The notes beneath the pieces were generated by a model. It did no database searches and had not been told where the DNA came from. It was given only the letters and a program-made list of their open reading frames with translations. The position numbers and the translations under genes are program-made. 64,000 bases of DNA from contig NZ_AFWV01000001.1 in NCBI RefSeq assembly GCF_000223985.1, forward strand, positions 62,001-126,000, given 5' to 3'. Origin of the DNA: Thiocapsa marina 5811 (GTDB taxonomy: Bacteria > Pseudomonadota > Gammaproteobacteria > Chromatiales > Chromatiaceae). Below, in pieces: positions 18,259-55,438 of the stretch (positions within the stretch are counted from its first letter, which is position 1; every line of letters starts with the position of its first letter).

Positions 18259-18449
18259 TAAACCGCGTCCAGAGCGAGAGGCCAGCTTTCGATTGAGCTC
18301 GACGTTTGGTGCATCCACGATCCTTGGCGGGGACGCGGTTTAAAATACTGTCTTTTTATTCTCCTAAACCGCGCCGGCTCCAGCGGTCGTGAAGTCCGCC
18401 GGGGCCGGTCCCTTCGAAAAAAATCGCATGCCGTACTGGGCGCGGTTTA
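18259..18449. repeat. Double-hairpin stop-codon element, copy A
   Basis: The element starts five bases after the cbbQ stop. Hairpin 1 is bounded by TAAACCGCGTCC and GGGGACGCGGTTTA, then a 23-bp AT-rich spacer with a TTTTTA run. Hairpin 2 is bounded by TAAACCGCGCCGGC and CTGGGCGCGGTTTA. Its right end supplies, on the minus strand, the TAA stop of the convergent fic gene (18447-18449). Other copies are at 46049, 47018 and 55246. Confidence 0.9.
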
Positions 18450-19550
18450 GCTTTCGAGTTCAGCGCCCGTCAGCGGATCGAAACGAGCGGATGACCACTG
18501 AAGGTTGGATTCGGCTTCTTCCAAACGATGATTGAGATCCGCCGGTGCTTCGAAGAGGAACGCCTGCCCGGCCTTCCGCTTGGAGAGTAGACCCAGCTCG
18601 ACCAGTTGCAGCAGATCCGAACGGGCGGTTTGGTAGACGACAGCGTGGTTTTGGCGATGCCCCTCGATGGTGTAGGCCGATTTCGGGTGGCGCAACGCAT
18701 GACGGAGCAGTGCCAACTGCCGGTGATTGAGGCGTTCACGCAGCCGCGCGGAGCTTTGAAGGATCGCTTCAACGACCTTCGTCTCGCCGGCCTTGCGCCG
18801 CAGATAGGCATGCAGTCCGTCCATGGCTGCGACGATGGTTTCCAGTTGATGGATCAGAAAATAGGTAACGTCGGACTCGTCGGTTTCCGTAAAAAGATAG
18901 GCGCGGGCGTACTGAGCCGGGGCCTTTTTCAGGATGCTGGAGATCGAGACGAATTCAAGCAGCCAGTATCCCTGCGAGAGCGCTGACCAGTAAAAAAGTG
19001 CGCGGGCGACCCGGCCGTTGCCGTCGACGAAGGGATGATCATGGGCAAGCGCGAAGTGCAGCAGGATGGCGCGAATGATTGGCGGCACGAAGGGGTCGGT
19101 GTCGCGCGCGTTCGCAACATCGCAGAGGCGCTCCAGCCGCGCGGGAAGCTCGTCGGCATGCGGCGGGACATGAAGAACGCGCCGGTCTCGGTGATCGACA
19201 ATATCGATGTGCTCGTCGGCTCGCCGCAGGCGTCCGGCCGCGGTGGGATCATCCAGCGTGTCGCGAGTCAGAACGCTGTGGAGCTTAAGGATGGCTTCAG
19301 GCGTCAGCGGTTCCCCGACGCGCTCGGAGATGGAGCGCATCGCCTGGAAGTTGTTGAAGATCATCGTCTCGCTCTTGTCCCTCGGACGGCGTCCTTGGCG
19401 AAGCATCTCCTTTGCGACTTGCCGGGTGGTCGAGGCGCCTTCCAGTTGGCTGGAATTGATAGCCTCCTCGATCAGCGAGCGGATCAGATAGCTGTCGCGT
19501 TGCTCGGGGTTCGCGACACGAACTACTAATTTAGTAGCGATTAGTACCAA
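18447..19550 (-). CDS. Fic-family protein inserted between cbbQ and cbbO (N-terminus probably truncated)
   Basis: Fic proteins transfer AMP or related groups from nucleotides to target proteins. The catalytic motif is intact at residues 172-183 (HPFVDGNGRVAR), and an inhibitory-helix motif of the (S/T)xxxE(G/N) type is present (SSQLEG, S33/E37/G38). A C-terminal winged helix follows (HRQLALLRHALRH...). The frame opens only at a TTG or other weak start near 19550 beside an AT-rich palindrome (CTACTAATTTAGTAG, 19523-19537), and an in-frame stop lies just upstream. Related Fic proteins, as I know them, have roughly 60-100 more residues before the RSLIEEA helix, so the 5' end looks lost or alternative. 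It is antisense to the cbb operon and its TAA stop comes from repeat copy A. The function may be toxin-like or housekeeping; the target is unknown. Confidence 0.85.
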   Translation of the reverse strand: MVLIATKLVVRVANPEQRDSYLIRSLIEEAINSSQLEGASTTRQVAKEMLRQGRRPRDKSETMIFNNFQAMRSISERVGEPLTPEAILKLHSVLTRDTLDDPTAAGRLRRADEHIDIVDHRDRRVLHVPPHADELPARLERLCDVANARDTDPFVPPIIRAILLHFALAHDHPFVDGNGRVARALFYWSALSQGYWLLEFVSISSILKKAPAQYARAYLFTETDESDVTYFLIHQLETIVAAMDGLHAYLRRKAGETKVVEAILQSSARLRERLNHRQLALLRHALRHPKSAYTIEGHRQNHAVVYQTARSDLLQLVELGLLSKRKAGQAFLFEAPADLNHRLEEAESNLQWSSARFDPLTGAELES

Positions 19551-19611
19551 ATTAGGACCAGCAGTGATAGCCCGTCACCGGGTATGACAACCTTCGATCC
19601 GGGATAGCGCC

Positions 19612-21993
19612 ATGAGCATCGACTTCTCCGAATACCTCTCCTGCCTCAAGGCCGACGCGGATCACCCGCACACCCAGGCGTTGGAGGCGAGCTACCACGA
19701 AGCCGCGCGCGTCATGTCGCCGCGCGGACTGGAGCATTACCTGACCGGCATCAAGGCGATGTGCGGCCTGAACAAGGGCGCCGATCTGGTCCTGACCTAT
19801 GTGCAGGAGATGCCGCGGGTCGCCAAGGAGGTGGGCGAGGACATCATCCCCGAGGTGGTGAGCGCCTTGATGAAGCTCGCATCCCACACCTCCGGGACGG
19901 TGGTGGCGCTGATCATGTCCAGCATGCCGCTGGCCGCGAGCCGGCTCGGGGATGCGGAGGTGCTGCGCGGGTATCTCAACCTGCTGCATCAGCTCTCGGG
20001 CAAGTCGCCGCGGGGCCTGCGCCCGATGATGGAGAACATGGACGAGCTGCTCTCCAAGCTCACGCTCGGCGGTCTGCGCCGCTGGGCGCTCTGGGGCGCG
20101 CAGGCCCATGCGCGCGACCTCGACGGCCAAATGGCCTATTTCGGGCTTCAAACGGAGTCCTCGCGCGCGGTGCTTCAGAAGGAACGGCGCGGGACCCTGC
20201 TCGTCGACAACCAACGCAAGCTCAATTTCTATCTGCGTGCGCTCTGGGCCCGGTCCTTCTTCATGCGCCCGACCTCGGGCGACTACGAGTCGCGCCAAGG
20301 TCTGCGGCCCTTCATCGAAGACTTCCAGATCCATCTGCCGGACGCCTTCGACAGCTTCCGCGGCATCTCGGGGATCGAGACCTACCGCGCCGCCGCCGCC
20401 CACTGCGCGGCACACATGGTCTACGGCACCAACGCCATCAGCGCCGAGCAGCTAATGCCGGCGCAGATGAAGCTGATCGAGATGTTCGAGGACGCGCGTG
20501 TCGAGGCGCTCGCCATCCGCGATTTTCCGGGGCTGAAGAAGCTCTGGCTGTCCTTCTTCACCGCACAGCTCGGACCGATGGACGACGCCGTCGATCTGCA
20601 TCCGATGATGGATCTGATGCTGCGCCAGGCGCGTGCCCTGCTGGATCCGGACTATGTCGACGGACTCTCGCTGATCGACGACACCGCCGTCGCCTTCCGC
20701 GCCGCGCTGGCCGAGCGTCCGCACGACAACCGCATCAGTTGGGACGCGGGCGTCACCTTCTACAACCAGGCCATCAAGACCGTCGCACTGCCCAACTTGC
20801 GCATCCTCGAGAGCTGGCCGATCCCCTATCGCGACGACAATCGCTATGTCTGGAACTGCGGCGAGAACCTCTTCCTGACCCGCGGCGTCGACTATCTGCC
20901 CGCCTCGCAGCAACAGGTGCGCAAGTACGTCTCAGCGATGGAGATGGCCAACGAGGTCGATGTCGAGACCGCCGGGGACGACGCACAGGAGATCTGGGTC
21001 TGCGCCACCGAGTTCTTCCCCTACGAAGACGAGGGCGTCTCCTTCAACGCGATGGAGGGCAAGGAGCCCATCTCGGACCCCTACCACTATCAGGAGTGGG
21101 ACTATCAGGTCCAACTCTTCCGCCCGGACTGGGCGACCGTCATCGAACGGCGTCAAGGCCGCGGCGACCCGGCGCTCATGGACGAGATCCTCGTCAAGCA
21201 CAAGCCGGTCGCGAGCCGCATCCGGCGTCTGATCGACGCACTCCAGCCGCAAGGCATCGTGCGCCGGCGCGGCTACGAGGAAGGCGAGGAGCTGGACCTG
21301 AACGCCGCCGTGCGGGCCATGATCGACGTGCGCCGCGGCACCATGCCGGATCCGCGGATCAATATCCGCATCACCCGCCATGTCAGGGATCTCGCCATCG
21401 TGGTGCTCATGGATCTCTCCGAGTCGACCAACGAGAAGGTCGGGGTCAAGAAGGACGACCCGGATTACGCAACGGCACCGAGCATCCTCAGCCTCACCCG
21501 CGAGGCCACCGGGCTGCTGGCCTGGGCCATCGACGGCATCGGCGACCGTTTCGCCGTTCATGGCTTTGCCTCCGACGGCCGCCACGACGTCCAGTACTAT
21601 CGCTTCAAGGACTTCGATCAGTCTTACGACGACAACGCCAAGTCACGCATGGCCGGCATGAAGGGCGGACTCTCCACCCGCATGGGCGCGGCGCTGCGCC
21701 ACGCCGGCTGGCACCTCACCCGCCAACCGGCCCAAAAGCGTCTGGTGCTGGTGATCACCGACGGCGAGCCGGCGGACATCGACGAGCGCGATCCGCAGTA
21801 CCTGCGCCACGACACCAAAAAGGCCGTCGAGGAGCTTCGCATGCAGGGCGTTCACAGCTACTGTCTGACGCTCGATCCGCAGGCCGACCGCTACGTCGCC
21901 CGAATCTTCGGCGAGAATCAGTATTCCATCGTCGACCATGTCGAGCGCCTGCCCGAGCGGCTACCGGCGGTGTTTGCAGCGCTCACGGGATAG
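19612..21993 (+). CDS. cbbO: RuBisCO activase adaptor CbbO (von Willebrand factor A domain)
   Basis: CbbO is the substrate adaptor of the CbbQO activase. It docks on RuBisCO while the CbbQ hexamer drives remodelling. The 793-aa product has a long helical N-terminal part (MSIDFSEYLSCLKADADHPHTQ) and a C-terminal von Willebrand A domain from about residue 590. The metal-site motif is intact (DLSES, D601/S603/S605), with a downstream threonine segment (GGLSTRMGAALRHAG) and ITDGEPAD. Length and domain order fit the family. The start has no competing upstream ATG. The promoter is not evident; the gene must be read either through the interrupting fic region or from a local promoter in 19551-19611. 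Confidence 0.95.
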   Translation: MSIDFSEYLSCLKADADHPHTQALEASYHEAARVMSPRGLEHYLTGIKAMCGLNKGADLVLTYVQEMPRVAKEVGEDIIPEVVSALMKLASHTSGTVVALIMSSMPLAASRLGDAEVLRGYLNLLHQLSGKSPRGLRPMMENMDELLSKLTLGGLRRWALWGAQAHARDLDGQMAYFGLQTESSRAVLQKERRGTLLVDNQRKLNFYLRALWARSFFMRPTSGDYESRQGLRPFIEDFQIHLPDAFDSFRGISGIETYRAAAAHCAAHMVYGTNAISAEQLMPAQMKLIEMFEDARVEALAIRDFPGLKKLWLSFFTAQLGPMDDAVDLHPMMDLMLRQARALLDPDYVDGLSLIDDTAVAFRAALAERPHDNRISWDAGVTFYNQAIKTVALPNLRILESWPIPYRDDNRYVWNCGENLFLTRGVDYLPASQQQVRKYVSAMEMANEVDVETAGDDAQEIWVCATEFFPYEDEGVSFNAMEGKEPISDPYHYQEWDYQVQLFRPDWATVIERRQGRGDPALMDEILVKHKPVASRIRRLIDALQPQGIVRRRGYEEGEELDLNAAVRAMIDVRRGTMPDPRINIRITRHVRDLAIVVLMDLSESTNEKVGVKKDDPDYATAPSILSLTREATGLLAWAIDGIGDRFAVHGFASDGRHDVQYYRFKDFDQSYDDNAKSRMAGMKGGLSTRMGAALRHAGWHLTRQPAQKRLVLVITDGEPADIDERDPQYLRHDTKKAVEELRMQGVHSYCLTLDPQADRYVARIFGENQYSIVDHVERLPERLPAVFAALTG

Positions 21994-22070
21994 GCCGCGA
22001 AACGGCCCACCTGACTCAGGGTCCGAGAGATGGTCGCTTTCCGTTGACAGGGTGAACAGGCGCCGTAGCC

Positions 22071-22149
22071 GTAGGGTGGACGAGCAAGAGCGAAGTCCAC
22101 CGAATCCCGCGCCGACGCTGGTGGGCTGCGCTGCGCTTGTCCACCCTAC
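22071..22149. repeat. REP-type palindrome (GTAGGGTGGAC family), copy 2
   Basis: GTAGGGTGGACGAGCAAGAGC... pairs with ...GCTGCGCTTGTCCACCCTAC. It lies in the cbbO 3' region before the convergent hydrolase gene. It is about 85% identical by eye to the copy after jetD. The rest of 21994-22266 shows no gene. Confidence 0.85.
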
Positions 22150-22266
22150 GAGCCTATTGGCGTGCATATGATTCAGGATGTGGAGACGGGATCGTACCCG
22201 AATCGTTGAGCCGCTATCAAAAACCGCGATGTCAGGGCAGCGACAAGACGCGCGGCCCACATCAGG

Positions 22267-22899
22267 CTACTGGAGCCGCGCGGCGAACGACGCGACGGCG
22301 CCTGCCGCCAGGCTCAGGTTCTGCTCCAGCGTGACCCCGGATGCCCGACGCGGCTTAAAGCTATGCTCTCCGTCCGCGATCCAGACGATCTCGATCGACG
22401 GACTCAAATCATAGCGAGCGACCTCCTCCCGGCTTCCGAAGGGATCTCGCTCGCCTTGGCAGATCAGCTTCGGCGTTCGCAGCCCGGACAGATGCGCGAC
22501 ACGCGTGCGCTCCGGACGACCCGGCGGATGAAAGGGATACCCGAGGCAAACCAGGCCATCGACGCCGGCCTCGTCCGCAATCAGGCTTGCAATGCGCCCG
22601 CCCATCGATTTACCGCCGATCAACAGGCGTTCTCCCGCGCCATGGGCAACACGCTGCTCGGCGATGACCCGCAGCCAGGTCTCGATCAGGATCGGCTCGC
22701 GATCGGGAGGACGCCTTCTTCCCTCGGTCTCGCTTCGCACCATATAGGGAAACGAGAAGCGCGAGACGCGCAGCCCGGCGGCCGCCAACGCATGTGCAAC
22801 CGCGCTCATGAAGGGGGAGTCGGCGCCCTGCCCTGCCCCGTGCGCCAAAATCAGATGGCAACGCGCATCGGCCGGACCATCGATCAGCAGAGGATCCAT
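22267..22899 (-). CDS. Small alpha/beta hydrolase (KANL3/Tex30-type dienelactone-hydrolase-like)
   Basis: This roughly 210-aa cytosolic protein has an alpha/beta-hydrolase fold with a complete apparent triad: the oxyanion region ILAHGAGQGADSPFM, the nucleophile elbow GGKSMGGR, the acid in QGERDPFG and the histidine in ADGEHSF. This pattern matches the short KANL3/Tex30-like hydrolases; the substrate is unknown. Two start codons are adjacent (22902 and 22899). A good AGAGGG ribosome-binding site lies six to nine bases upstream, inside the beginning of the divergent DUF2177 gene. The two genes start within a few bases of each other and share their 5' ends. Confidence 0.82.
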   Translation of the reverse strand: MDPLLIDGPADARCHLILAHGAGQGADSPFMSAVAHALAAAGLRVSRFSFPYMVRSETEGRRRPPDREPILIETWLRVIAEQRVAHGAGERLLIGGKSMGGRIASLIADEAGVDGLVCLGYPFHPPGRPERTRVAHLSGLRTPKLICQGERDPFGSREEVARYDLSPSIEIVWIADGEHSFKPRRASGVTLEQNLSLAAGAVASFAARLQ

Positions 22900-22900
22900 C

Positions 22901-23314
22901 ATGCAAGCCCTCTTTTTCGTAAAGCTCTATCTCCTGACCGTCCCGGTCTTCTTCGCGATCGATCTGCTCTGGTTGGGCGTCGTCGCCAAGACCTTCTATC
23001 GCGAGAACCTCGCCCACGTCCTGAGCCCGACGGTGAACTGGCCGGCCGCACTGAGCTTCTACCTCATCTATATCGCCGGCATCCTCTATTTTGCCGTCGC
23101 CCCTGCGCTCGCGCAGGACTCGCTCGGCCGGGCCGTGCTCAACGGCGCACTCTTCGGCTTCTTCACCTACATCACCTACGAGCTCACCAACATGGCCACG
23201 CTCCCGAGCTGGCCCATCAAGGTCGTGATCGTGGATACGCTCTGGGGCATCGCACTCTGCGCCAGCGTTGCCGGCGGCAGCTTTATGATCGGAAGATGGC
23301 TCGGCGGGGTCTGA
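22901..23314 (+). CDS. DUF2177 family membrane protein
   Basis: This 137-aa integral membrane protein has four hydrophobic helices. It has the DUF2177 hallmarks AIDLLWLGVVAKTFYRENLAHVL near the N-terminus and a central FFTYITYELTNMATLPSWP, then VVIVDTLWGI. The function is unknown. The ATG at 22901 is preceded by AGAGGA, which lies within the coding sequence of the divergent hydrolase. The longer open frame upstream overlaps that gene and is not used. Confidence 0.85.
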   Translation: MQALFFVKLYLLTVPVFFAIDLLWLGVVAKTFYRENLAHVLSPTVNWPAALSFYLIYIAGILYFAVAPALAQDSLGRAVLNGALFGFFTYITYELTNMATLPSWPIKVVIVDTLWGIALCASVAGGSFMIGRWLGGV

Positions 23315-23412
23315 TGGTCCATTCGAGGCTTCCCCGGGGAGCTTCGGAATGGCAGTGGACGGCCCGCTTCCAGACCGTCTAGCCCGGGCGGCCCAAGGCC
23401 GCCCGGTCGGAC

Positions 23413-24072
23413 TTAGTCCTTGTTGCCTTTAAACATCTGCATCGGGTTCGGCATCATTTTCATCGGGTTCATGCCGCTTCCGCCGCGATCATCCTCGCCG
23501 GATCCGTAACCGGGTCCGTATTCGGGGCCATAACCCTGACCGTAGCCCGGTCCGTAACCCTGCCCGACGCCGGGGGGCGGAGCGTAGCCCTGGTCGTAGC
23601 CTTGGCCGTAACCGGGGGCGTAACCGGGCGCGTAGCCCTGGCCGTAGGCGGGAGCCGGGGGATAGCCCTCTGCGGTGCCTGCTCCGTATCCCGGGGCCTG
23701 CCCATAGCCCGGCGCACCCCCGTATCCCTGCGGGGGCATCTGCTGCGTCGGAGCACCACCCATCTGTGGATCCGTGTAACCGGGCGGAGGCCCGTAGCCT
23801 TGCGAGGGTGCTCCGCCATACCCCGGCTGCGGGGCTCCGTAGCCGGGTGCGGCTCCGTATCCCGGCGCACCACCGTAACCCGGTGCGCCCTGCGGATAGT
23901 AGCCTTGGGGGTAACCCTGCGGCGGCGGATAATCACCCTCCCGACTACGGTCCTTGTTGCCGCCCATCCATTTGGATGGATTCATCATGTCGCCCATGTC
24001 TACTGCGGATGCCGGCCCGCTTAGAACCAAGCCCGCAATCCCGGCTGTCAGTGCTGCTTTGATGATGCTCAT
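23413..24072 (-). CDS. Secreted Pro-Gly-Tyr-rich repeat protein
   Basis: The 219-aa product starts with a clear Sec signal peptide (MSIIKAALTAGIAGLVLSGPASA). It then has a short MNPSKWMGGNKDR block, about 150 residues of irregular PGYG/QGY/GYA repeats, and a C-terminal MNPMKMMPNPMQMFKGNKD block that echoes the N-terminal one. No catalytic domain is seen, and glycine, proline and tyrosine dominate. It is probably an intrinsically disordered periplasmic or cell-surface structural protein. Sulfur-globule envelope proteins of purple sulfur bacteria are also exported and Gly/Tyr-rich, so a related role is possible, but this is inference from composition only. It is a single gene, divergent from the AI-2E-type transporter across a 256-bp gap with nothing else recognisable. 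Confidence 0.8.
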   Translation of the reverse strand: MSIIKAALTAGIAGLVLSGPASAVDMGDMMNPSKWMGGNKDRSREGDYPPPQGYPQGYYPQGAPGYGGAPGYGAAPGYGAPQPGYGGAPSQGYGPPPGYTDPQMGGAPTQQMPPQGYGGAPGYGQAPGYGAGTAEGYPPAPAYGQGYAPGYAPGYGQGYDQGYAPPPGVGQGYGPGYGQGYGPEYGPGYGSGEDDRGGSGMNPMKMMPNPMQMFKGNKD

Positions 24073-24328
24073 AGATCTTCGATGCGCTCCTCGTCTGTTG
24101 TCATGATGTTGTCTTCCCGAGAGGAGAGTATGGACCCTGCGAGACCGGATGCCAGCACCCGTCCGGGCTCGGCGGGGTTTGCGCGGCCGTCGTGATGCCG
24201 CCGGCGGGGCGCCGGGTTAAGATTGCCGCGGCCGAGAAGGGCGGCGGAAAAAGCCCTGGCCCTGCCCCGCTCGCGTTGCCGGCTCAAGACACCATCGAAC
24301 GAAGCCAATCACCGGAGGATTCGACGAC

Positions 24329-25384: not shown

Positions 25385-25454
25385 CCAGGCGGGCTCTTCG
25401 GCCTCTCTCGGGAGGGGCCGTCGATCGGCTTTCGGGACACGGTCTCGGAGACCC

Positions 25455-26873: not shown

Positions 26874-27053
26874 GGACGCTCCGGAATAGATGGATTCGAT
26901 CGGACGGCCGCCGCGACCGCGGCGGTGCCGGATGTGACGGGAGAGAATTTGGACGGTGCCGAAACAAGCACCGCTGCCGGGCCGGGCCGCTTTACACCTT
27001 CGGTTTGGTTCGCCGAGCGCACGCGTCGCCGGCCGTCGCGGTTACGCTGCGGT

Positions 27054-27536
27054 TCAGGGCCAGGGAAGGATCTGGACCGGCGGGCTCCGCTCGATCCGAC
27101 ACACGACCGCATGCTGCTCGGAACGGTTCCGAGATCGCGCACTGTAGCCGCGTAGCCAGAACAACGCCAGAGCGAAGCCGAACGCCGCACCGAGCAGTGC
27201 CGCCGCGTCAGTCCAAGCGCTTTCGGCCGTTCCGGCAAGCAGGGCCTCTCCCGCGAACGCACCACCGAGCAGACCGACCAAGGGCACGAAATAGACTGCA
27301 AACGACGCCGAGAGGAGACCCCGCTCCGAGATCCCGAGCATCACGCGCTCGCCGACCGATGCCTGCGCCTGATTCAAGGCTCGAACCTGCGTCGAGCTGC
27401 GCCCGAAAAAGCGCTCGATCAGGGATGTTCCGCAGGCACCCTGCGCCGCGCATCCGCCGCAGACCGTTCGGCGCTCGACCCGAACCAAGGCATAGCGGCC
27501 CTCGGTCGAGACGACGACACCCGCTTCTTCGATCAT
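27054..27536 (-). CDS. rseC: Sigma-E positive regulator RseC/MucC
   Basis: RseC is an inner-membrane protein linked to sigma-E control and, in other bacteria, to SoxR reduction and electron transport. The 160-aa product has an N-terminal cysteine cluster (VCGGCAAQGACGTSL, C-x2-C-x5-C) and two transmembrane helices (SFAVYFVPLVGLLGGAFAGEALL; AAALLGAAFGFALALFWL). Its ATG overlaps the rseB stop (ATGA). Length and topology fit the family. Confidence 0.92.
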   Translation of the reverse strand: MIEEAGVVVSTEGRYALVRVERRTVCGGCAAQGACGTSLIERFFGRSSTQVRALNQAQASVGERVMLGISERGLLSASFAVYFVPLVGLLGGAFAGEALLAGTAESAWTDAAALLGAAFGFALALFWLRGYSARSRNRSEQHAVVCRIERSPPVQILPWP

Positions 27537-29051: not shown

Positions 29052-29198
29052 TGCTTCATGCCTTGGCTGAGAATTCATTGACTGGATGGACATCGTCGTC
29101 CGAGGATTTCGACCTCACGTCTCCTGCGAAGGTGCCGACAGGCGCGCCGGACAACGCCCGACGCAGCCGCTCGCTGCCGATTTGACGCCGCCGAGCCG

Positions 29199-29783: not shown

Positions 29784-29817
29784 GAGCCTTGGCGCTGCTG
29801 ACCAGCGATTCCGTTGG

Positions 29818-31699: not shown

Positions 31700-31784
31700 G
31701 CACAAAGCCACCGCCGGGCTGCCGATGAGACCGTCTGCATCACCCCGACGCACCCTGCCGGGGCCGTGAAATAGAGCCGGGATG

Positions 31785-32164: not shown

Positions 32165-32201
32165 TTCCGCCCGACATACCCGCAATTGGAGAACGATCAA
32201 G

Positions 32202-45479: not shown

Positions 45480-45514
45480 CTCGCCTCCCGGGACCTCGAT
45501 ATCGGAATCACCGC

Positions 45515-45997
45515 ATGGGACTCGCACTGAGACTCTATGAAAGCCTGACCGAAGCGCCGGACGATACGACGCGCTTTCGGCTCATCGTCGACACCATCGA
45601 TGCCTTGGAGCAACAGTGGCCGCGAGGCGGCGATGTGGCACTTCGGTCGGATGTCCGCGAATCCGAGCTGCGGCTCCAAAAGGAAATCGAGCAGGTCAGA
45701 AGCGAGCTCAAGAAAGACATCGCTGAGCTTCGTGCGGACATGCACAAAGAGATCGCCGAGCTTCGTGCGGACATGCACAAAGAGATCGCCGAGCTGCGTG
45801 CGGACATGCACAAGGAGATCGCCAAGCTACGGGGCGAGGTCCAAAAGGACATCGCCGAGCTACGGAGCGAGGTCCAGAAGGATATTGCCAACCTCCATGC
45901 CGCGATCGAGCGCACCAAGGTCGATCTGCTGAAGTGGATCGTCCCGCTGATGCTGGGCCAAGTCGCCGCGCTCGCGGCCTTGGTCAAGCTCCTTTGA
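45515..45997 (+). CDS. Coiled-coil protein with 11-residue repeats and C-terminal membrane anchor
   Basis: The 160-aa product has an N-terminal globular segment (MGLALRLYESLTEAPDDTTRFRLIVDTIDALE) and a long coiled coil. From about residue 68 the coil contains six successive 11-residue units of the type (D/E)IAELRADMHK. A C-terminal hydrophobic helix follows (WIVPLMLGQVAALAALVKLL). This resembles the DUF1640/CCDC90-type family of membrane-anchored coiled-coil proteins. The first three units are nearly identical 33-bp direct repeats in the DNA (45716-45814). The ATG at 45515 was chosen by the start of the conserved part. Function unknown; it stands 35 bp after the octaheme gene and could be co-transcribed. 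Confidence 0.75.
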   Translation: MGLALRLYESLTEAPDDTTRFRLIVDTIDALEQQWPRGGDVALRSDVRESELRLQKEIEQVRSELKKDIAELRADMHKEIAELRADMHKEIAELRADMHKEIAKLRGEVQKDIAELRSEVQKDIANLHAAIERTKVDLLKWIVPLMLGQVAALAALVKLL

Positions 45998-46048
45998 AGA
46001 GACCGCGCAAGCTCGCCGCGCTCGCGCCGATCGCAGTTGCACCGTGCC

Positions 46049-46167
46049 CGGCGCGGCTTAAAGTATTAAAAAATATTAAATTCTAAACCGCGTCTCACCG
46101 GGATCGAGGATATCTCCGAAGCCAAACGCACAATCAGAACGACGCATGCCGCTCCGGGCGCGGTTTA
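46049..46167. repeat. Double-hairpin stop-codon element, copy B (inverted, shortened)
   Basis: This is an inverted copy relative to the other three. On the minus strand it starts TAAACCGCGCCC at 46167 and gives arsM its TAA stop. It then has the inner part (tttggcttcggagat ... gtgagacgcggttta) and the AT-rich spacer, and ends at a partial second hairpin arm. By eye it is about 80% identical to the first half of copy C on the other side of arsM. Confidence 0.85.
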
Positions 46168-46983
46168 GCCCGGCTTGTTCGCCTCGATGCTCGCCGAGAC
46201 CAGATAATCCGTGACCGGCGTTCCCGGGGCCCAGTCCTGAATAAAGTCCCGGCTCTCGTCCTTCGGCGACACGCGCACCTGATCGAATCCCGCACCCTTC
46301 AGCATCTGCTCGAGTACATCGATCCGGGCCGCCCCCGCCATGCACCCGGTGTAGAGCGACAGGTCCGACCGGAGATCCTCCGGCAGCTCGGCAGTCGCGA
46401 CGATGTCCGAGATGGCCAGTCGCCCGCCCGGCTTGAGCACCCGAAATGCCTCCGCGAAGACACGGGCTTTGTCCGGAGACAGGTTGATGACGCAGTTTGA
46501 GATGATGACGTCGACCGAGCCATCCGCCAGCGGCAGGTTCTCGATCTCGCCGAGTCGAAATTCCACGTTCCGATAACCGACCGCCTCGGCGTGCGCATCC
46601 GCGTTGCTGCGCGCCTTGGTCAGCATCTCCGGTGTCATGTCGACGCCGATGACGCGACCGGTCTCGCCCACTTGCCGGGAGGCGAGAAAAGAATCGAACC
46701 CGGCGCCGCTGCCCAGATCCAATACCGTCTCACCCGGCTTCAGCGCGGCGATCGCTTGGGGATTGCCGCAACCCAAGCCGAGATTCGCACCCTCGGGTAC
46801 GGCGGCGGTCTCGGCCTCGCTGTACCCGAGCAGGGTCGATTGGATCGGCACGGGCGCGCAACAACCGCCCGCAGAGGACGGGGCGCAGCAATCGGCCCCC
46901 TCGCCTCCCGCCACCGCTCGTGCCGTCGCACCGTAGCGATCGCGCACCGCTTGGCGAAGGTTGTCTTGCTCGTTATTTTTCAT
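46165..46983 (-). CDS. arsM: Arsenite S-adenosylmethionine methyltransferase
   Basis: ArsM methylates As(III) to methylated arsenicals in the cytosol, a detoxification step. The 272-aa product shows the SAM-binding motif [24 protein letters not shown], and the cysteines expected for arsenic binding in SNCVINL and TGCMAGA. An N-terminal cysteine-rich stretch ([13 protein letters not shown]) is common in bacterial ArsM. The ATG at 46983 has a GGGAGA site six bases upstream. The gene stands alone and is bracketed by inverted copies B and C of the double-hairpin element. No arsR or arsenic transporter is near. Confidence 0.93.
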
Positions 46984-47017
46984 TCTGTTCTCCCGTCGGG
47001 TCATGCCGAGAACGAAC

Positions 47018-47208
47018 TAAACCACGTCCAGAGCGCGATGCGTCATTTTCATTTTGCATTTGGCTTTGGAGATGCCCTCGATCTCGGTGAGACGCGATTT
47101 AAATTTAATAGTCTTTAATCTCTTAAACCGCGCCGACTCCAACGCTCGTTACGTCTGCCAAAACCGATCCCATCCAAAAACATCGCATACCGCGCCGGGC
47201 GCGGTTTA
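47018..47208. repeat. Double-hairpin stop-codon element, copy C
   Basis: Starts TAAACCACGTCC at 47018, 34 bp upstream of the arsM ATG. It ends CGGGCGCGGTTTA at 47208, where TTA (47206-47208) is the minus-strand TAA stop of the DUF1415 gene. It is 191 bp long, the same as copy A. The left hairpin is less perfect than in copies A and D (CACG, GCGATTTA) and the right hairpin is intact. Confidence 0.88.
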
Positions 47209-47748
47209 AAAACAGGCATCCCTCAACGCCTTCATATAGTCAAGCCCCTTCTCGCGGGCGAATGCGATGTTTCTTTCAGGGATAGCATCCGCATCAGGGT
47301 ATCGGTCAAGCACATGTTCAATGCTCTCTTCGCGGAGCAGGTGCAACATCGGATAGAGCGATCTGTTCGTATAGTTTGCAGGATCATCCTCGGGCGCATC
47401 GGCGAACCGATAATCGGGATGGAATCCGGCAACCTGATACTGACCTTCATAGCCTTTCGCTTCGAGAAGATCTTCCGCCATTGCGACCAATTCCAGGTAA
47501 TCGTCGAAATCCGGAAGAGCACCGGGGAGGATCAACAGCGTTGTCTCGATCGACGGGTCTTCATCGAGGCGAAGGCACTCTTCGAGAAAGGCCTCGAGGC
47601 AGGCTTCCATGTCGGAGTCGATTAAGACTCGATAGTGTATTGCGCCGCGATTGAACTCTTTTGCCGCAAAGGGACACATGCGACATCCCATCACAACCTC
47701 GGAGATCCATTTCTTGGTCCGCGCGACAACGTCGTCGGATGCAACCAT
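47206..47748 (-). CDS. DUF1415 family protein
   Basis: The 180-aa cytosolic protein matches DUF1415: VVARTKKWISEVVMGCRMCPFAAKEF near the N-terminus (a CRMCPF cysteine pair), ETTLLILPGALPDFDDYLELVAMAE in the centre and GFHPDYRFADAPEDDPANYTNRSLYPMLHLLRE toward the end. The function is unknown. The ATG at 47748 begins the conserved part; the 43 upstream in-frame codons are poorly conserved in character. Its stop codon is supplied by repeat copy C. Confidence 0.85.
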   Translation of the reverse strand: MVASDDVVARTKKWISEVVMGCRMCPFAAKEFNRGAIHYRVLIDSDMEACLEAFLEECLRLDEDPSIETTLLILPGALPDFDDYLELVAMAEDLLEAKGYEGQYQVAGFHPDYRFADAPEDDPANYTNRSLYPMLHLLREESIEHVLDRYPDADAIPERNIAFAREKGLDYMKALRDACF

Positions 47749-48087
47749 CAGTTTCAGCCCGGTTCCGGCGATTGGAAAGGTGAATTCGGGACGGTTCCGG
47801 AGCCCCGAATCAGGGGTGCAGTATATACCGATCGCACGTGGGTTTTCCGCGGCATTGCACGTCCCGCTGGACGTCAAATCCGAAGAGCGTGGAAACCTCC
47901 AGGAGAGGAGTCAAGGTTCCTCGGCCGGGAGCCGTCCGATGGCCTCACCTCGCACTGCTGCTGCGCATGCTCGATTGCAAAGTATCTTTTCATTAGGTGG
48001 TCAAACTTGTCAGCCGCGTTTGCGCTCTAGACCGAGGATAACTCGCATAGACATCGTACGCTACTGTTCTTAAAAATAAATTCAGAA

Positions 48088-48103
48088 TGGCATCTCTTTT
48101 GCT
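48088..48103 (+). promoter_or_regulatory. Sigma-54 (-24/-12) promoter of the hup operon
   Basis: TGGCATCTCTTTTGCT matches the consensus TGGCAC-N5-TTGCW, with GG and GC ten bases apart. It lies 63-78 bp before the hupS start. The hupR gene at the end of the cluster encodes a sigma-54 activator with an intact GAFTGA loop, so this is the expected promoter class. The remaining 47749-48087 region has no recognisable gene; it should hold the activator sites, but I could not identify a TTG-N5-CAA HupR site with confidence. Confidence 0.75.
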
Positions 48104-48165
48104 TTTCACCTCCTCGACCGTCCGGCACCATCCAGGCGCCGACGTACAGCGGGGACGACAACCAG

Positions 48166-49248
48166 ATGCCAACCACCGAAACCTATTACGAGGTCATGCG
48201 GCGCCAGGGGATCACGCGCCGCAGCTTCCTCAAGTTCTGCAGCCTGACAGCCACCGCGCTCGGGCTCGCGCCGACCTTCGCCGGAAAGATCGCGCACGCG
48301 ATGGAGACCAAGCCGCGGATCCCGGTCGTCTGGCTGCATGGGCTCGAATGCACCTGCTGCTCGGAGTCCTTCATCCGATCCGCACACCCGTTGGTCTCGG
48401 ACGTGATCCTCTCGATGATCTCGCTGGATTACGACGATCTCATCATGGCGGCGGCCGGACATCAGGCCGAGGCGATCCTGGAGGAGGTGCGCCACAAGCA
48501 CGCCGGGAACTACATCCTCGCGGTCGAGGGTAATCCGCCACTCAATCAAGACGGTATGAGCTGCATCATCGGCGGTCGTCCCTTCGTCGAGCAGCTCCTG
48601 GAGATGGCCGACAGCTGCAAGGCCGTCATCTCTTGGGGCTCCTGCGCCTCCTGGGGCTGTGTTCAGGCGGCCCGGCCCAATCCGACACGTGCCACGCCGG
48701 TGCATGAGGTGATTCGCGACAAACCCGTAATCAAGGTGCCGGGCTGTCCGCCGATCGCCGAGGTCATGACCGGGGTCCTGACCTATATCCTCACCTTCGA
48801 CCGGCTGCCGGAGCTCGACCGCCAGGGTCGCCCGCTGATGTTCTACGGACAGCGCATCCACGACAAGTGCTACCGCCGGCCGCACTTCGACGCCGGCCAG
48901 TTCGTCGAGTCCTGGGACGACGAGGGCGCGCGCCGCGGCTACTGTCTCTACAAGGTCGGCTGCAAGGGCCCAACCACCTACAACGCCTGCTCGACCATCC
49001 GCTGGAACGGCGGGGTGTCCTTCCCGATCCAGTCCGGACACGGCTGTATCGGCTGCTCGGAGGACGGCTTCTGGGACAAGGGCAGCTTCTATCAGCACGT
49101 CACCGACACCCACGCCTTCGGCATCGAAGCCAACGCGGATCGCACCGGCATCGCCGTCGCGACCGGCGTGGGTGCGGCCATCGCCGCCCATGCGGCCGTC
49201 AGCGTCTACAAACACGCCCAAGACAAGAAGGGAGATGACCAAGCATGA
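48166..49248 (+). CDS. hupS: [NiFe] uptake hydrogenase small subunit
   Basis: This is the electron-transfer subunit, with three Fe-S clusters, of the membrane-bound group 1 hydrogenase that oxidises H2 at the periplasmic face. The 360-aa product has a twin-arginine signal (RR at 18-19, [19 protein letters not shown]), the proximal-cluster motif ECTCCSESF, later cluster cysteines (CGPTTYNAC-type and [14 protein letters not shown]) and a C-terminal transmembrane helix (about 328-350). A GGGGAC site precedes the ATG at 48166. It overlaps hupL by four bases. It is exported folded, together with HupL. Confidence 0.97.
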
Positions 49249-51035
49249 GCGTCGTCACGGCCAACGGCTTCGAGCTCGATACCGCCGGACGACGCCTCGT
49301 CGTCGACCCGGTCACCCGCATCGAGGGGCACCTGCGTTGCGAGGTGAATCTCGACGAGAACAACGTGATCCGCAACGCGGTCAGCACCGGGACCATGTGG
49401 CGCGGACTCGAGGTCATCCTGCGCGGCCGCGATCCGCGCGACGCCTGGGCCTTCACGGAGAGGATTTGCGGCGTCTGCACCGGGACCCATGCCCTGACCT
49501 CGGTGCGCGCGGTCGAGGATGCACTCGGGATCGCGATCCCGGAGAACGCCAACTCCATCCGCAACATCATGCAGCTCACGCTCCAGGCGCACGACCACCT
49601 GGTGCATTTCTATCATCTGCATGCGCTGGATTGGGTGGACGTGGTCTCGGCCCTCGGTGCCGATCCGAAGGCGACCAGCGCGCTGGCGCAGAGCATCAGC
49701 GACTGGCCCAAGTCCTCGCCGGGCTATTTCCGCGACGTTCAGAATCGGCTCAAGCGTTTCGTGGAGTCGGGTCAGCTCGGGCCCTTCATGAACGGCTACT
49801 GGGGCAGTCCGGCCTACAAGCTGCCGCCCGAGGCCAACCTGATGGCGGTCACCCACTATCTGGAGGCGCTCGACTTCCAGAAGGAGATCGTGAAGATCCA
49901 CACCGTCTACGGCGGCAAGAACCCCCATCCGAACTGGCTGGTCGGCGGGATGCCCTGTGCCATCAATGTCGACGGCACGGGCGCGGTCGGCGCGATCAAC
50001 ATGGAACGGCTTAATCTGGTCAGCAGCATCATCGACCAGACGATCGAATTCATCGACAAGGTCTACATCCCGGACCTGATCGCGATCGCCTCCTTCTATA
50101 AGGACTGGACCTACGGCGGCGGGCTGAGCAGTCAGGCGGTGATGTCCTACGGCGACATCCCGGATCATGCCAACGACCTGTCCTCGGAGAACCTGCTCCT
50201 GCCGCGCGGCGCGATCATCAACGGCAACCTCAACGAGATCCACGAGATCGATCTGCGCAACCCCGAGGAGATCCAGGAATTCGTCGACCACTCCTGGTTC
50301 AGCTACAAGGACGAGACCCGCGGCCTGCATCCCTGGGACGGGGTGACAGACCCCAACTTCGTGTTGGGGCCCAACGCCGTCGGCACGCGCACCCGGATCG
50401 AGGCGCTCGACGAGCAGGCCAAGTATTCATGGATCAAGGCCCCGCGCTGGCGCGGACATGCGATGGAGGTCGGTCCGCTGGCGCGCTATGTCATCGGCTA
50501 CGCCCAGGGCAACCCGGAGTTCAAGGAGCCGGTCGACAAGCTGCTGACCGATCTCGGACTGCCGCTCGAGGCGATCTTCTCGACCCTGGGACGCACCGCC
50601 GCACGCGGGCTGGAGGCCTCCTGGGCGGCCCACAAGATGCGTTATTTCCAGGACAAGCTGGTCGCCAACATCAAGGCCGGCGACACCGCAACGGCCAACG
50701 TCGACAACTGGGACCCCAAGACCTGGCCGAAGGAGGCACGCGGTGTCGGAACGACCGAGGCCCCGCGCGGGGCGCTTGGACACTGGATCGTGATCAAGGA
50801 CGGCAAGATCGACAACTACCAGGCGGTCGTCCCGACCACCTGGAACGGCTCGCCGCGCGATCCGGCGGGGAACATCGGGGCCTTCGAGGCGTCGCTGCTC
50901 AACACCCCGCTGGCCAAGGCGGACGAGCCCTTGGAGATCCTGCGCACGCTGCACAGCTTCGATCCTTGTTTGGCCTGTGCGACGCACATCATGGGGCCGG
51001 ACGGGGAGGAGCTGACCCGCGTCAAGGTTCGCTGA
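49245..51035 (+). CDS. hupL: [NiFe] uptake hydrogenase large subunit
   Basis: This subunit carries the NiFe(CN)2CO active site. The 596-aa product has the N-terminal motif [16 protein letters not shown] (C75, C78) and the C-terminal motif DPCLACATH (C575, C578, H581). A 15-residue extension follows and is expected to be removed by the HupD protease after nickel insertion. All four ligand cysteines are present, so the enzyme should be active. The gap to hupC is filled by a palindromic repeat. Confidence 0.98.
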
Positions 51036-51137
51036 AACGTGTCTCGAGGACGTTTGATGGGGTCGGGGTGAGCTTGGCCTCGACGCCGCATGCGAACTTG
51101 GCGGACGCGTTTCAGGTGATTCGTTCGACGTGAAATA

Positions 51138-51231
51138 CCCAAAGAACTCGTGACATCCGCTCCGCGGTGTCACGCATGCCCCGTGGCGCTCTGCGCCACG
51201 TGAAACGATGACCAAAATGACGAACGAGGCC
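51138..51231. repeat. Palindromic repeat element, copy 2 (between hupL and hupC)
   Basis: Two hairpins, CGTGACATCCGC...GCGGTGTCACG (51149-51174) and GTGGCGC-tct-GCGCCAC (51183-51199), plus flanking AAAGAA and CGAACGAGGCC. It is the inverted counterpart of the element at 1461-1600. Placed inside an operon, it could stabilise the hupSL message or reduce hupC expression. Confidence 0.85.
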
Positions 51232-51284
51232 TGGGGTTTTCCTGTGTACACCCCGGATTCATCGCTCACACTCGGGACGACAAC

Positions 51285-51977
51285 ATGAATTCCAGCCTTC
51301 CACAGGTCAGACGAACCGCGGTCTATGTCTATCAGGCACCCTTGCGGGCCTGGCATTGGATCAACGCACTCTCGATCACGATCCTGGCCATCAGCGGCTA
51401 TCTGATCGGCAGCCCGCTCCCGACCTTGCCCGGAGAGGCGAGTGATCACTATGTGATGGGCTATATCCGCTTCGCGCATTTCGCCGCAGCCTATGTCTTC
51501 GTGATCGCCTTTCTCTTCCGGATCTATTGGGCATTCGCGGGCAATCGCTATTCACACCAATTGTTCACCTTGCCCTTCTGGCGTGCGAGCTTCTGGCACG
51601 AGCTGATTCACGAGGTCCGCTGGTATGCCTTCAAGGAAACCGAGCCGGCCAAATATATCGGCCACAATCCGCTGGCTCACCTCTTTATGGTGGTCATCAT
51701 CACCGTGGGCGGTCTGGTGATGATCGTCACCGGGTTCGCGCTCTATTCTGAGCAGACCGGGCTCGGGAGTTGGCAGGACGAGCTATTCGGCTGGGTCATC
51801 CCCTTCGTGGGCCAGAGCCAGGACGTGCGCATGTGGCACCACTGGGGGATGTGGGTGATCGTCGTTTTCGTGATGCTGCATGTCTACACGGCGATTCGCG
51901 AGGACATCATGTCGCGCCAGAGCCTGATCAGCACCATGATCAGCGGCTGGCGGATGTTCAAGGACGATCGGCCATGA
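51285..51977 (+). CDS. hupC: Hydrogenase-linked cytochrome b (HupC)
   Basis: HupC is the di-haem membrane subunit that passes electrons from HupSL to the quinone pool and anchors the dimer. The 230-aa product has four transmembrane helices with haem-ligand histidines in LRAWHWINALSI, IRFAHFAAAYVF and MWHHWGMWVIVVFVMLHVYTAIREDIM. The ATG at 51285 follows GGGACGAC, similar to the hupS leader. It overlaps hupD by four bases (ATGA). Confidence 0.96.
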   Translation: MNSSLPQVRRTAVYVYQAPLRAWHWINALSITILAISGYLIGSPLPTLPGEASDHYVMGYIRFAHFAAAYVFVIAFLFRIYWAFAGNRYSHQLFTLPFWRASFWHELIHEVRWYAFKETEPAKYIGHNPLAHLFMVVIITVGGLVMIVTGFALYSEQTGLGSWQDELFGWVIPFVGQSQDVRMWHHWGMWVIVVFVMLHVYTAIREDIMSRQSLISTMISGWRMFKDDRP

Positions 51978-52654
51978 GCGACCGAGCCATCGGGAACAAC
52001 CCCGCCATCCTGATCCTGGGCATCGGCAACCTGCTCTGGGCCGACGAGGGCTTCGGCGTGCGGGCGGTGGAGGCGATGCAACGCGACTGGCATCTGCCCC
52101 CGAATGTTCAACTGCTCGACGGCGGAACCCAGGGGATCTATCTGGTCGACCGGGTGCGCACGGCCGATGTGCTGGTGGTCTTCGATGCGGTCGACTATGG
52201 CCTGCCGCCGGGCACCATGAAGCGGGTGGAGGGCGACGAGGTGCCGCGCTTTCTCGGCGCAAAGAAGATGAGCCTGCACCAAACCGGCTTTCAAGAGGTG
52301 CTCGCGCTCGCGGCCATGCTCGGCGAGTATCCGGAGTATCTGCTCCTGATCGGCGTGCAGCCGGTCGAGCTGGATGACTTCGGAGGCAGCCTGCGCCCGC
52401 AGGTCAAGGCGCGGATCGCCCCGGCGATCGCGATGGCCCTGGAGTATCTCGCGCAGTTCGGCGTCGTCGCCCTGCCGCGCAGCGACTCAAGCGCCGAGAA
52501 CCATGATCTGCCCCATCCATCGCTCGATCTGGACGCCTACGAAGCCGGCCGACCGGCGCCGGAGATCGCCTGCCGCATCGGCGACGAGCGCGTCCTGGCA
52601 AGCCTGCCCGGCCGTACGAGCCAACCCCGAGATCCCCACGGAGAATATCAATGA
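51974..52654 (+). CDS. hupD: Hydrogenase maturation protease HupD
   Basis: HupD is the endopeptidase that cleaves the C-terminal extension of HupL once nickel is bound. The 226-aa product has the conserved nickel-sensing residues in GIGNLLWADEGFGVRA (Asp/Glu), DAVDYGL (Asp) and the histidine in KKMSLHQTGF. It is longer than typical proteases of this class because of a 40-residue tail. The ATG at 51974 overlaps the hupC stop; an open frame upstream lies inside hupC. Confidence 0.94.
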   Translation: MSDRAIGNNPAILILGIGNLLWADEGFGVRAVEAMQRDWHLPPNVQLLDGGTQGIYLVDRVRTADVLVVFDAVDYGLPPGTMKRVEGDEVPRFLGAKKMSLHQTGFQEVLALAAMLGEYPEYLLLIGVQPVELDDFGGSLRPQVKARIAPAIAMALEYLAQFGVVALPRSDSSAENHDLPHPSLDLDAYEAGRPAPEIACRIGDERVLASLPGRTSQPRDPHGEYQ

Positions 52655-53511
52655 CCACACCGATAGACCTCACGACGACGAGGCGGATGCCGGGAACGCC
52701 CTTCAGCGTCGTGGTCGACGAAGGTCCCGACTATCTCTCGATGCCGAAGGGCATGGCGACCTATCAGCCCCCGCCGCTGCCCGAGCCGGAGTTGCTCGAC
52801 GGCTGCGCCGCCGGACTGGATCTGTTGCGGCGTCTGCATGCGACACTGGCGCGGCATCGCGTGGGCCAGCCGGCGGAGGTCCTGGATCTGGCTCCACTCG
52901 ACCTGATCGATCGCCAGCTCGTCGACCAAACCCTCGGCGAGGGTGAGGTCAGCGTGATTCAACAGGGTTTGGAGGGCACCCGTGCGCAGGAGACACGCCT
53001 CGCCGGGGTCTGGCGGCTGCACGTCCCCGCGTCGGACAGCGGCCCGGGCCGCGAGGTCATCGAGGTATCGGAGATCCCGAGCTTCGTCCGGGAGACCGCT
53101 TTTGCCGATACAGCGGAGACGATCGGACCCGTCGGCGATCTCGCGGACGGCGTCATGAACGCCCCGGCGCTGATCGTCGAGATCGAAGCCAAGGTCGCCG
53201 AATGGCGTCCCGGCACCCCGACCCACATCATCAATCTCACCTTGCTTCCGATGACCGAGCAGGATCACGCCTATCTCGACGAGCGACTCGGTCGCGGACA
53301 CGCGACCATCCTCTCGCGCGGCTACGGCAGTTGTCGGATCGTCGCGAGCGGCATTCGACAGACCTGGTGGGTGCAACACTTCAACTCGGACGATCGGCTC
53401 ATCCTGAGCACGCTCGAGGTGACGGATGTCCCCATCGCCGCGCTGGCCGCACAGGAGGACATCGACGACAGCCGCGATCGGTTGGCGGAGATTCTGGAGA
53501 CATTGGATTGA
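52651..53511 (+). CDS. hupH: Hydrogenase accessory protein HupH (HyaF family)
   Basis: HupH/HyaF assists assembly of the Fe-S small subunit and adjusts hydrogenase expression in related bacteria. The 286-aa product has the family features: GMATYQPPPLPEPE near the N-terminus, EGEVSVIQQG, VRETAFADTAETIG, and the C-terminal block HATILSRGYGSCRIVASGIRQTWWVQHFNSDDRLILSTLEV. Its ATG overlaps the hupD stop (ATGA). Confidence 0.92.
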   Translation: MTTPIDLTTTRRMPGTPFSVVVDEGPDYLSMPKGMATYQPPPLPEPELLDGCAAGLDLLRRLHATLARHRVGQPAEVLDLAPLDLIDRQLVDQTLGEGEVSVIQQGLEGTRAQETRLAGVWRLHVPASDSGPGREVIEVSEIPSFVRETAFADTAETIGPVGDLADGVMNAPALIVEIEAKVAEWRPGTPTHIINLTLLPMTEQDHAYLDERLGRGHATILSRGYGSCRIVASGIRQTWWVQHFNSDDRLILSTLEVTDVPIAALAAQEDIDDSRDRLAEILETLD

Positions 53512-53545
53512 ATCCGAGCCGAGGTCTCGACGGGCCGGATCGGCG

Positions 53546-53671
53546 CAGCGCATTTCCGCGGACGACATCGCAAGGGTTTGCCGGCGTCGATGCGGGGTGA
53601 CGAGGCGCACCGACCTCGACGCTGACCCGCTTTGGGCAGCGGGGCGTGTCATCCGGTCCCTACCCCGATAA
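53546..53671 (+). pseudogene. Possible decayed hupI (rubredoxin) remnant
   Basis: In related hup operons, as I recall them, a rubredoxin gene (hupI) stands between hupH and hupR. Here the gap has no intact rubredoxin. One frame reads ISADDIARVCRRRCGV and then DADPLWAAGRVIRSLP, which faintly matches the start of HupI (a CxxCG-like knuckle and a GDPxW...LP segment). A normal start and the second cysteine pair are missing. This is suggestive only. Confidence 0.25.
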
Positions 53672-53781
53672 ACGACAGACCTTGCGTACTAGGCGCCTTT
53701 GCGGGTCAAATCCATGCCGAAACCCTAATCGACCGCAACGGAAACGCCACCCGAAACGATGCCCAAACCCGAGACCCCGGC

Positions 53782-55248
53782 GTGAGCGCCGCCCGACCGA
53801 CTGTTCTGCTGGTCGACGACGAACCGCTGTCGCTCGAAACCCTGACCAGGACGCTCGACGAGTCGTTCGAGGTGTTGACGGCAACCAGCGCCGCCGCCGC
53901 CGAGGAGATCCTCGCGCAGGAATGGGTCCAGGTCATCGTCACCGATCAACGGATGCCCGAGACCACCGGGGTGGAATTCCTCGCTCGGGTCAGGGAGCGT
54001 TGGCCGGACGTCGTGCGCATCATCATCTCGGGCTATACGGATCCCGGAGACATCATCGAGGGCATCAACCGCGCAGGCATCTATCAGTACATCACCAAAC
54101 CCTGGCATCCCGACACTCTCCTGCTGACCGTCGGGAACGCCTGCCATCTTTATCGCCTCCAGCGCGAGCACGAGCTCCTCTCGCTCGAAACCCGCCTCAC
54201 CGCCGCGACCCTGGAGCAGAAACTCGCCGCACACCGCGCGCGACTGAAACGGACCTTTCGGCTCGACGCCATCGTGCGCAGTCCCGGCGGCCCTCTCGAC
54301 GCGGCGTGCGACCTGGTGGAGCGCGTCGCACCCTACGACATCCCGGTGTTGTTGACCGGCGAATCCGGTACCGGGAAGGAGCTCTTTGCGCGAGCCCTGC
54401 ACTACAACAGCCACCGAGCCGACAAGCCTTTCGTCGCGGAGAATTGCGGCGCCATGCCGGATCAACTCCTCGAGAGCGAGCTGTTCGGACACAAAAAAGG
54501 CGCCTTCACCGGCGCCGTCAACGATCGGATCGGTCTCTTCGAGCAGGCCGACGGCGGCACGATCTTTCTCGACGAGATCGGCGAGGTCTCGCGGGCGTTC
54601 CAGGTCAAACTACTGCGCGTCCTGCAGGAGGGCGACGTGCGCCCGCTTGGAAGCAATCAACGTCGCCGCGTCGACGTGCGCGTGGTGGCGGCGACGAATC
54701 GGTCGCTGGAGACCGAGATCGACGCAGGCCGCTTTCGGGAGGATCTCTATTACCGACTCGCCGCGGTTCGCCTCCATCTCCCGCCGCTGCGCGAGCGCCC
54801 GGGCGACATCCCGGTGCTCGCCCGTCATCACCTCGAGGCCGCCATGGCCGCGTTCGGAAAACCCGTGACAGGACTCAGCGACGCTCTGATCGACCGCCTC
54901 CAACGCCATCATTGGCCGGGAAACGTACGGGAGCTGCAGAACGAGATCCAGCGCATGCTGGTGATGTGCGACGACAACGAGCTCGGAGCGGATTTGCTCG
55001 ATCCCGGCATCCTCGGCGCTACCGCGCGCTCCGAGCCCCCGGCCTCCGAACCGCTGCAGGCGCAGACCCTCAAGGCACGCATCGAGGCACTCGAGGTCAA
55101 CATCCTCGGCGAAGCACTCGAGCGCAATCGCTGGAACAAATCACAAACCGCGGCGGAGCTGGGCCTGTCACGCGTCGGCCTCAGTGCAAAGATCGAGCGG
55201 TATGGGTTGTCGAGGCCGCAGGGGAACGATCGGCGCGATCCGTCCTAA
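53782..55248 (+). CDS. hupR: Sigma-54-dependent response regulator HupR/HoxA
   Basis: This is an NtrC-family activator of hydrogenase genes. The 488-aa product has a receiver domain with the phosphoacceptor in [13 protein letters not shown], a linker helix, and an AAA+ domain (Walker [15 protein letters not shown] loop in [12 protein letters not shown]; Walker [11 protein letters not shown]). A C-terminal Fis-type helix-turn-helix follows ([23 protein letters not shown]). The start is uncertain: I chose the GTG at 53782 ([15 protein letters not shown]), which matches the usual HupR length, while the frame is open to 53632. No hupT or hupUV partner genes are in the window. Its TAA stop (55246-55248) is the first codon of repeat copy D. 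Confidence 0.93.
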
Positions 55249-55438
55249 ACCGCGTCCAGAGCGAGATGCTCACTTTAGCGTGAGTTCGACGTCGGGTGCA
55301 TCCACGGCTCTTAGCGGAGACGCGGTTTAGAATTTTATATCTTTTAATACTTTAAACCGCGCCGGCTCCGACAATGATCGGAGCCGGCGCGGCCAAACCA
55401 AATCAACAAACGACGCATGCCGCGCTGGGCGCGGTTTA
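55246..55438. repeat. Double-hairpin stop-codon element, copy D
   Basis: Hairpin 1 runs from TAAACCGCGTCC to GGAGACGCGGTTTA, an AT-rich spacer follows (gaattttatatcttttaatac), and hairpin 2 runs from TAAACCGCGCCGGC to CTGGGCGCGGTTTA. Its first three bases are the hupR stop codon. It contains an extra internal palindrome (gccggctccga...tcggagccggc). It separates hupR from the convergent sulP-sqr transcription unit. Confidence 0.9.

Follow-up and report, generated by a model that had tools for sequence, protein, structure and literature searches.

Short repeats that populate intergenic DNA, and whose ends can act as the stop codons of neighbouring genes, have been described in several bacteria, and we compare our element with them as they appear in the available portions of the cited papers. 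RUP of Streptococcus pneumoniae is a 107-bp non-autonomous repeat, present in 108 copies, which has a TA-containing target and is enriched between convergent genes (PMC2229807, PMC3049150). The Thiocapsa element that we describe here is likewise a short non-autonomous repeat with a TA-containing target, often located between convergent genes. RUP, however, has its ends in common with IS630-Spn1, whereas no such partner was found for the Thiocapsa element, and the density of RUP is highest 50-150 bp from genes, whereas the Thiocapsa element is often located directly at the stop. For 36 coding sequences, BOX, also from S. pneumoniae, encodes the stop codon, and the available text gives no strong evidence that these sequences are truncated (PMC3049150). 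Both BOX and the Thiocapsa element are modular repeats whose ends serve as stops, but they differ in sequence, modules and size range, and no route to the stop codon by TA duplication is proposed in that portion of PMC3049150.

The termini of GTAG-type REPs “often provide” a TAG stop to the flanking ORFs, and most of these REPs are found where the adjacent ORFs are unidirectional or convergent (PMC3733652). As described there, they are palindromes of 20-40 bp tied to RAYT transposases, unlike the ~84-bp modules and TA duplication of the Thiocapsa element. Correia/NEMIS of Neisseria is an abundant bacterial MITE with terminal inverted repeats (PMC10969869); the Thiocapsa element shares the abundance and the terminal inverted repeats, but prefers the 3' ends of genes, whereas the part of the literature available for Correia/NEMIS places it mainly upstream of genes, with promoters of its own. 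MITEPsy1 of Pseudomonas syringae uses the target CTAG or YTAA (PMC3189936), which is close to the YTAR of the Thiocapsa element, but it is reported to duplicate four bases rather than two. The Thiocapsa family was not described in any open-licence paper among the matches listed in our search. The repeat family is new within that literature; the phenomenon of a repeat end serving as a stop codon is already published, for BOX and for REP.

A two-module repeat in Thiocapsa and its relatives

The window, by which we mean the whole 64-kb stretch of Thiocapsa marina 5811 DNA analysed, had been noted in a preliminary description to contain four copies of a double-hairpin repeat, each ending in a TAA that terminates a neighbouring gene. 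Both observations hold: the repeat plan is present at all four places, with copy 2 truncated such that its other unit is reduced to the last ~11 bp, and in all four cases a gene next to the repeat has the terminal TAA as its stop (Table 1). Pfam and NCBIfam assign the flanking genes to the Fic, arsenite methyltransferase, DUF1415 and sigma-54-dependent response regulator (NtrC type) families. By its sequence family, the last of these is predicted to encode a sigma-54-dependent regulator of the NtrC type, for which “hupR” is a putative name. The window also contains, at 45515-45997, a small ORF with a tandemly repeated coiled-coil motif, ADMHKEIAELR, whose Pfam matches are mostly of the coiled-coil type.

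Table 1 Copies of the repeat and the stop codons at their ends, in window coordinates.
Feature	Coordinates	Strand	Description
Copy 1	18259..18449	.	two-unit, 191 bp; TC-type unit 18259-18342, CC-type unit 18365-18449, AT-rich spacer 18343-18364
fic stop TAA	18447..18449	-	made by copy 1 end; fic = 18447-19550
Copy 2	46049..46167	.	truncated; remnant unit end ~46050-46060, spacer 46061-46083, intact unit 46084-46167
arsM stop TAA	46165..46167	-	arsM = 46165-47004
Copy 3	47018..47208	.	two-unit, 191 bp; units 47018-47101 and 47124-47208, spacer 47102-47123
DUF1415 gene stop TAA	47206..47208	-	gene = 47206-47877
Copy 4	55246..55438	.	two-unit, 193 bp; units 55246-55329 and 55353-55438, spacer 55330-55352
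hupR-like response regulator stop TAA	55246..55248	+	gene = 53632-55248

The length of a unit peaks sharply at 84-85 bp. Each unit is closed by an 11-bp inverted repeat with ends TAAACCGCGYC, which gives the element the terminal inverted repeats of a MITE, and the AT-rich spacer between two units is mostly 22-23 bp long (41 spacers measured, from the first loci). Four reference strings served to sort the units, and 87 of the 465 had a good match to none of them. No conserved interior fold was found, and conservation of the stem is limited to the 11-bp ends. In 172 doubles, the ends of a single unit agree at position 10 in 91-92% of cases and ends taken from the two units in 19-27%, and each unit thus behaves as a paired module in its own right. 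In the energy folds of copies 1 and 4, the two outer ends do pair, in place of pairing within units; such a fold of the whole 192-nt element was nonetheless rejected as its architecture, as the end letters match within units instead.

The end sequence TAAACCGCG occurs 457 + 438 times in the T. marina genome, where the reversed pattern occurs 22 + 19 times. In 2.07 Mb of this genome we detected 222 units, with none in a reversed sequence control, and 165 elements (86 single, 78 double and 1 triple), 62 of which sit between convergent genes. The exact unit pattern has 250 matches in the whole genome and was found in 10 of the 56 genomes searched, the T. marina genome counted. Eight of the 11 genomes of the genus carry it, with 100 to 515 matches each, and it is absent from the other three (G005, G006 and G009); elsewhere it has 43 matches in G028 and one in G031. 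Carriers among the matches listed comprise Thiocapsa, Thiobaca, Thiocystis, Lamprocystis and other Chromatiaceae, in at least 103 stretches. A search of plasmids and phages for relatives of copy 4 returned no match. With a length of ~192 bp and 250 exact units, the repeat has the small size and high copy number of a bacterial MITE; ~192 bp is too short to encode a transposase.

The same genome holds a second TA-flanked repeat of ~165 bp (C59:162189-162354, L203:2189-2354), with ends TATACCGAGCGCG...CGCTCGGTATA. Its copies are 83-98% identical among the matches listed for the seven relatives searched, and it is absent from the G004 orthologue, with a 2-bp overlap at the junction. This repeat would appear to be a further MITE family whose copies are young.

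Empty sites, the duplicated TA and pre-existing stop codons

Comparison of element flanks with the orthologous stretches of relatives returned candidate empty sites for 19 distinct loci. Nine of these have a clean junction, and at all nine the element is replaced by exactly two bases. The two bases are TA at six loci (C62:32764, C62:109018, C62:399889, L043:2611, L117:3208 and L249:170; a small indel lies close to those in L043 and L117). At the other three they are a variant of TA that differs by one letter: CA at C62:80259, TG at C62:407700 and GA at L016:4385. The junction at G4_a:15004 has three bases, and the other nine loci are unreadable at the junction. Since two bases replace the element at the clean junctions, TA is the duplicated target, which leaves AACCGCG...CGCGGTT as the element proper. 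A purine borders 235 of 243 TAA ends and 51 of 54 TGA ends on the outside, and the target is therefore YTAR. The empty sites with their duplicated TA bear out the earlier suggestion of a mobile miniature element and show the target-site duplication of a bacterial MITE. Duplication of TA is also what an element derived from IS630/Tc1-mariner would show, although IS630 is not alone in this, TA being used by IS427-type IS5 elements as well.

Relatives display both states at the sites in the window. In G002, the site of copy 3 is empty with a single TA and the fic site is empty with CA for TA, and the orthologous comparison showed that this relative also carries the arsM-site copy. After the hupR-like gene, G002, G004, G008 and G010 are without the element and G003 is with it.

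Ends of the form TGA...TCA do not, as they stand, represent TA duplication. YTAR flanks are common to them as well, and 29 of the 38 TGA...TCA units align poorly to any reference. In at least two comparisons, among them C62:403852 with KS1 and G004, and L080:6235 with L109, one genome has TA and the other TG. We considered whether these copies form a family of their own, with a different target, and rejected this because they have the same YTAR flanks and because TA and TG differ between relatives; the TGA...TCA ends likely arise by later change.

The repeat had also been proposed to supply the stop codon of its neighbour, and comparison with orthologues that lack the element contradicts this, as the same codon is already a stop in them. 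The DUF1415 gene of G002 has TAA at the same codon (translation and protein alignment), and the gene for a 593-aa protein at C62:399889 ends with TAG in the element-free Thiocapsa KS1, with both proteins aligned to the last or last-but-one residue (the 593-aa protein to its last). The hupR-like gene without element has, at the aligned position, TAG in G002 and TAA in G008; that of G004 (L229) has an in-frame TAG eight codons before an aligned TGA and so does not show a pre-existing stop, and that of G010 ends ~10 residues earlier. As fic in G002 ends 13 nt upstream through a frame difference, copy 1 at fic shows insertion and not an old stop. Because element-free relatives of the DUF1415, C62:399889 and hupR-like genes already end there, the element re-creates an existing stop.

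We conclude with high confidence that the repeats are a two-module miniature transposon which inserts at YTAR with duplication of TA, leaves a TAA or TAG stop as TAA, and has surviving copies that gather at gene ends. In the mechanism we propose, two ~84-bp modules, each closed by its 11-bp inverted repeat and separated by the AT-rich spacer, would be mobilised in trans by a DDE transposase, and insertion duplicates the central TA of YTAR, as is seen at the empty sites. The element proper has A as its first base on both strands, such that the TA of TAA or TAG together with this A reads TAA. The end and length of the gene would thereby be kept, which is observed at a few loci and is presumed for the rest. 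Repeat ends that act as bacterial stop codons would thus have a simple and testable explanation: for a transposon with a TA target and A as its first base, the stop codon is a neutral landing site. Such a transposon measurably rewrites stop-codon usage, from TAG to TAA, and its hundreds of insertions are a natural set for measuring the effect of a new 3'-end hairpin on a gene.

Placement at gene ends and fate after insertion

Genes were called by our own script, to which a gene already broken by an element is invisible. At 89 of the 213 gene 3' ends that face an element, the stop codon is the element's first three bases, while the next commonest distance shown has 5 cases. Counted by element, 86 of 165 have at least one end that is exactly a stop, and three have two. 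The stops formed in this way are TAA 72 times, TGA 14 times and TAG 3 times, and 72 of the 304 called TAA stops in the analysed 2.07 Mb, approximately a quarter, are element ends. The distances to stop codons thus show strongly non-random placement.

Occupancy of YTAR sites is 86/335 (26%) at stops and 29/133 (22%) within 30 nt downstream of them (p = 0.41). It is 14/231 at 31-100 nt downstream (12/177 co-directional, 2/54 convergent) and 14/459 between divergent genes, which puts these other noncoding classes at 3-7%. In finer bins, with small numbers, occupancy falls after ~30 nt. None of the 1291 YTAR sites inside called genes is occupied, and 4 elements overlap a gene; this absence is partly built in, since the script cannot call genes broken by an element. 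Copies thus appear to lie hardly ever inside called genes and rarely upstream of genes, both of which purifying selection can explain. It does not fully explain why so few sites are occupied more than 30 nt downstream, those between convergent genes included; native terminators located there, or a benefit of the element close to the stop, are possible causes. In this genome of 64% GC, most of the YTAR sites found at the 3' ends of genes are stop codons, and surviving copies therefore gather there, as the measured rates show, with selection as the presumed cause.

Once they have arrived by transposition, copies may in addition be kept as functional 3'-end hairpins that act as bidirectional terminators or stabilisers of RNA ends. 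This would add to the transposon reading, and we consider it possible while leaning against it. The fall in occupancy from ~22-26% at or within 30 nt of the stop to 3-7% beyond, and the match of ends within units, are in its favour, and the two window copies that were folded both beat 200 shuffles (z -7.2 and -4.3). In 20 orthologous pairs, moreover, mismatches in the end stems that are unique to the second genome number 19/613, where half the divergence of the interior would predict 46.5. This test is approximate, and its P = 4e-6 is overstated because several of the 20 pairs reuse loci (C62:397933 and C62:403852 each enter more than one comparison). Left out of it were pairs with near-identical flanks, pairs with a length difference >8 bp, copies <60 bases from the start of a stretch, and pairs with interiors differing by >33% (for example C62:56170 with L122, and L080:7007 with L109), a difference which signifies insertions that are unrelated or in opposite orientation. 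Changes on both sides of the stem affect 4 positions, against 0.8 expected; two of these are from the same locus and one is an improper pair. These sequence comparisons support stems that are maintained, or corrected by copying between the arms, and by this approximate measure the end stems are better preserved after insertion than the interior, which suggests a plausible secondary function at the 3' end. Against the hairpin function stand the lack of a conserved interior fold and the energy folds described above. A T-run on the sense strand of the gene is found in 22/37 copies and an A-run in 12, with 3 ties, which is not significant; no Rfam family matches window positions 17000-57000; and the 6 terminator-like sites in 45500-56000 are no excess over the 5.7 expected. 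A broader form, in which the transposon has become the standard 3' end of many genes, forming about a quarter of TAA stops, with the host selecting for stems and paired changes as a general transcript-end device, is slightly more doubtful still.

The other readings fare considerably worse. A mobile element with stop codons as its specific target, one of the forms suggested in the preliminary description, would produce the exact coincidence of 89 of 213 facing gene ends with element ends. It is improbable, as the occupancy of YTAR stops is not significantly different from that of YTAR sites just downstream, and as YTAR itself contains TAA and TAG; the rates thus lend no support to targeting of stop codons as such. 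The repeat could instead be of the REP/BIME type, which a RAYT (IS200/IS605-like) transposase would copy with no duplication of the target, since it is palindromic, has a high copy number and has 62 of 165 copies between convergent genes, and since GTAG REPs are reported to give TAG stops (PMC3733652). The duplicated TA at empty sites, and units of 84-85 bp with ends TAAACCGCG in place of a 20-40 bp palindrome with a GTAG or CGTC tag, make this a shade less probable again. Chance identity of repeat ends and stop codons could be entertained for the only four copies in the window but is negligible with 86 of 165 copies in 2.07 Mb having a stop-codon end. The repeats themselves go far beyond chance; the four of four of the earlier argument is less striking than it seemed, as 335 of the 468 YTAR sites at or within 30 nt past stops are the stop itself.

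Inserted copies of the miniature transposon also undergo rearrangement. At two loci (L019/L030 and L110/C62), one genome has a double and the other a single unit, with the break at the repeated ends, and in these two cases the single-unit copies are deletion products of doubles. At two loci the element has opposite orientations between genomes, which is the result of inversion or of independent insertion.

Candidate transposases

A transposase gene flanked by the ends of the repeat was sought among three families, with at most 1 mismatch allowed in each end, as chance pairs occur at 2 mismatches per end. None of the 32 DDE_3 loci from six genomes is flanked by such ends, and thus none of them ties the repeat to an IS630-type transposase gene; G003 has no DDE_3 loci. 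The single DUF4096 locus has no flanking end pair, and neither do the 30 DDE_Tnp_1 loci that were read out of 108 matches in four genomes. As none of the loci read has a transposase gene flanked by these ends, the repeat may belong to the IS630 type or to another superfamily that uses TA. The DDE_Tnp_1 matches are themselves unevenly distributed, with 60 in G004 against 13, 14 and 21 in the three other genomes. Many of those in G004 have identical scores, and the surplus probably reflects a recent burst of an insertion sequence.
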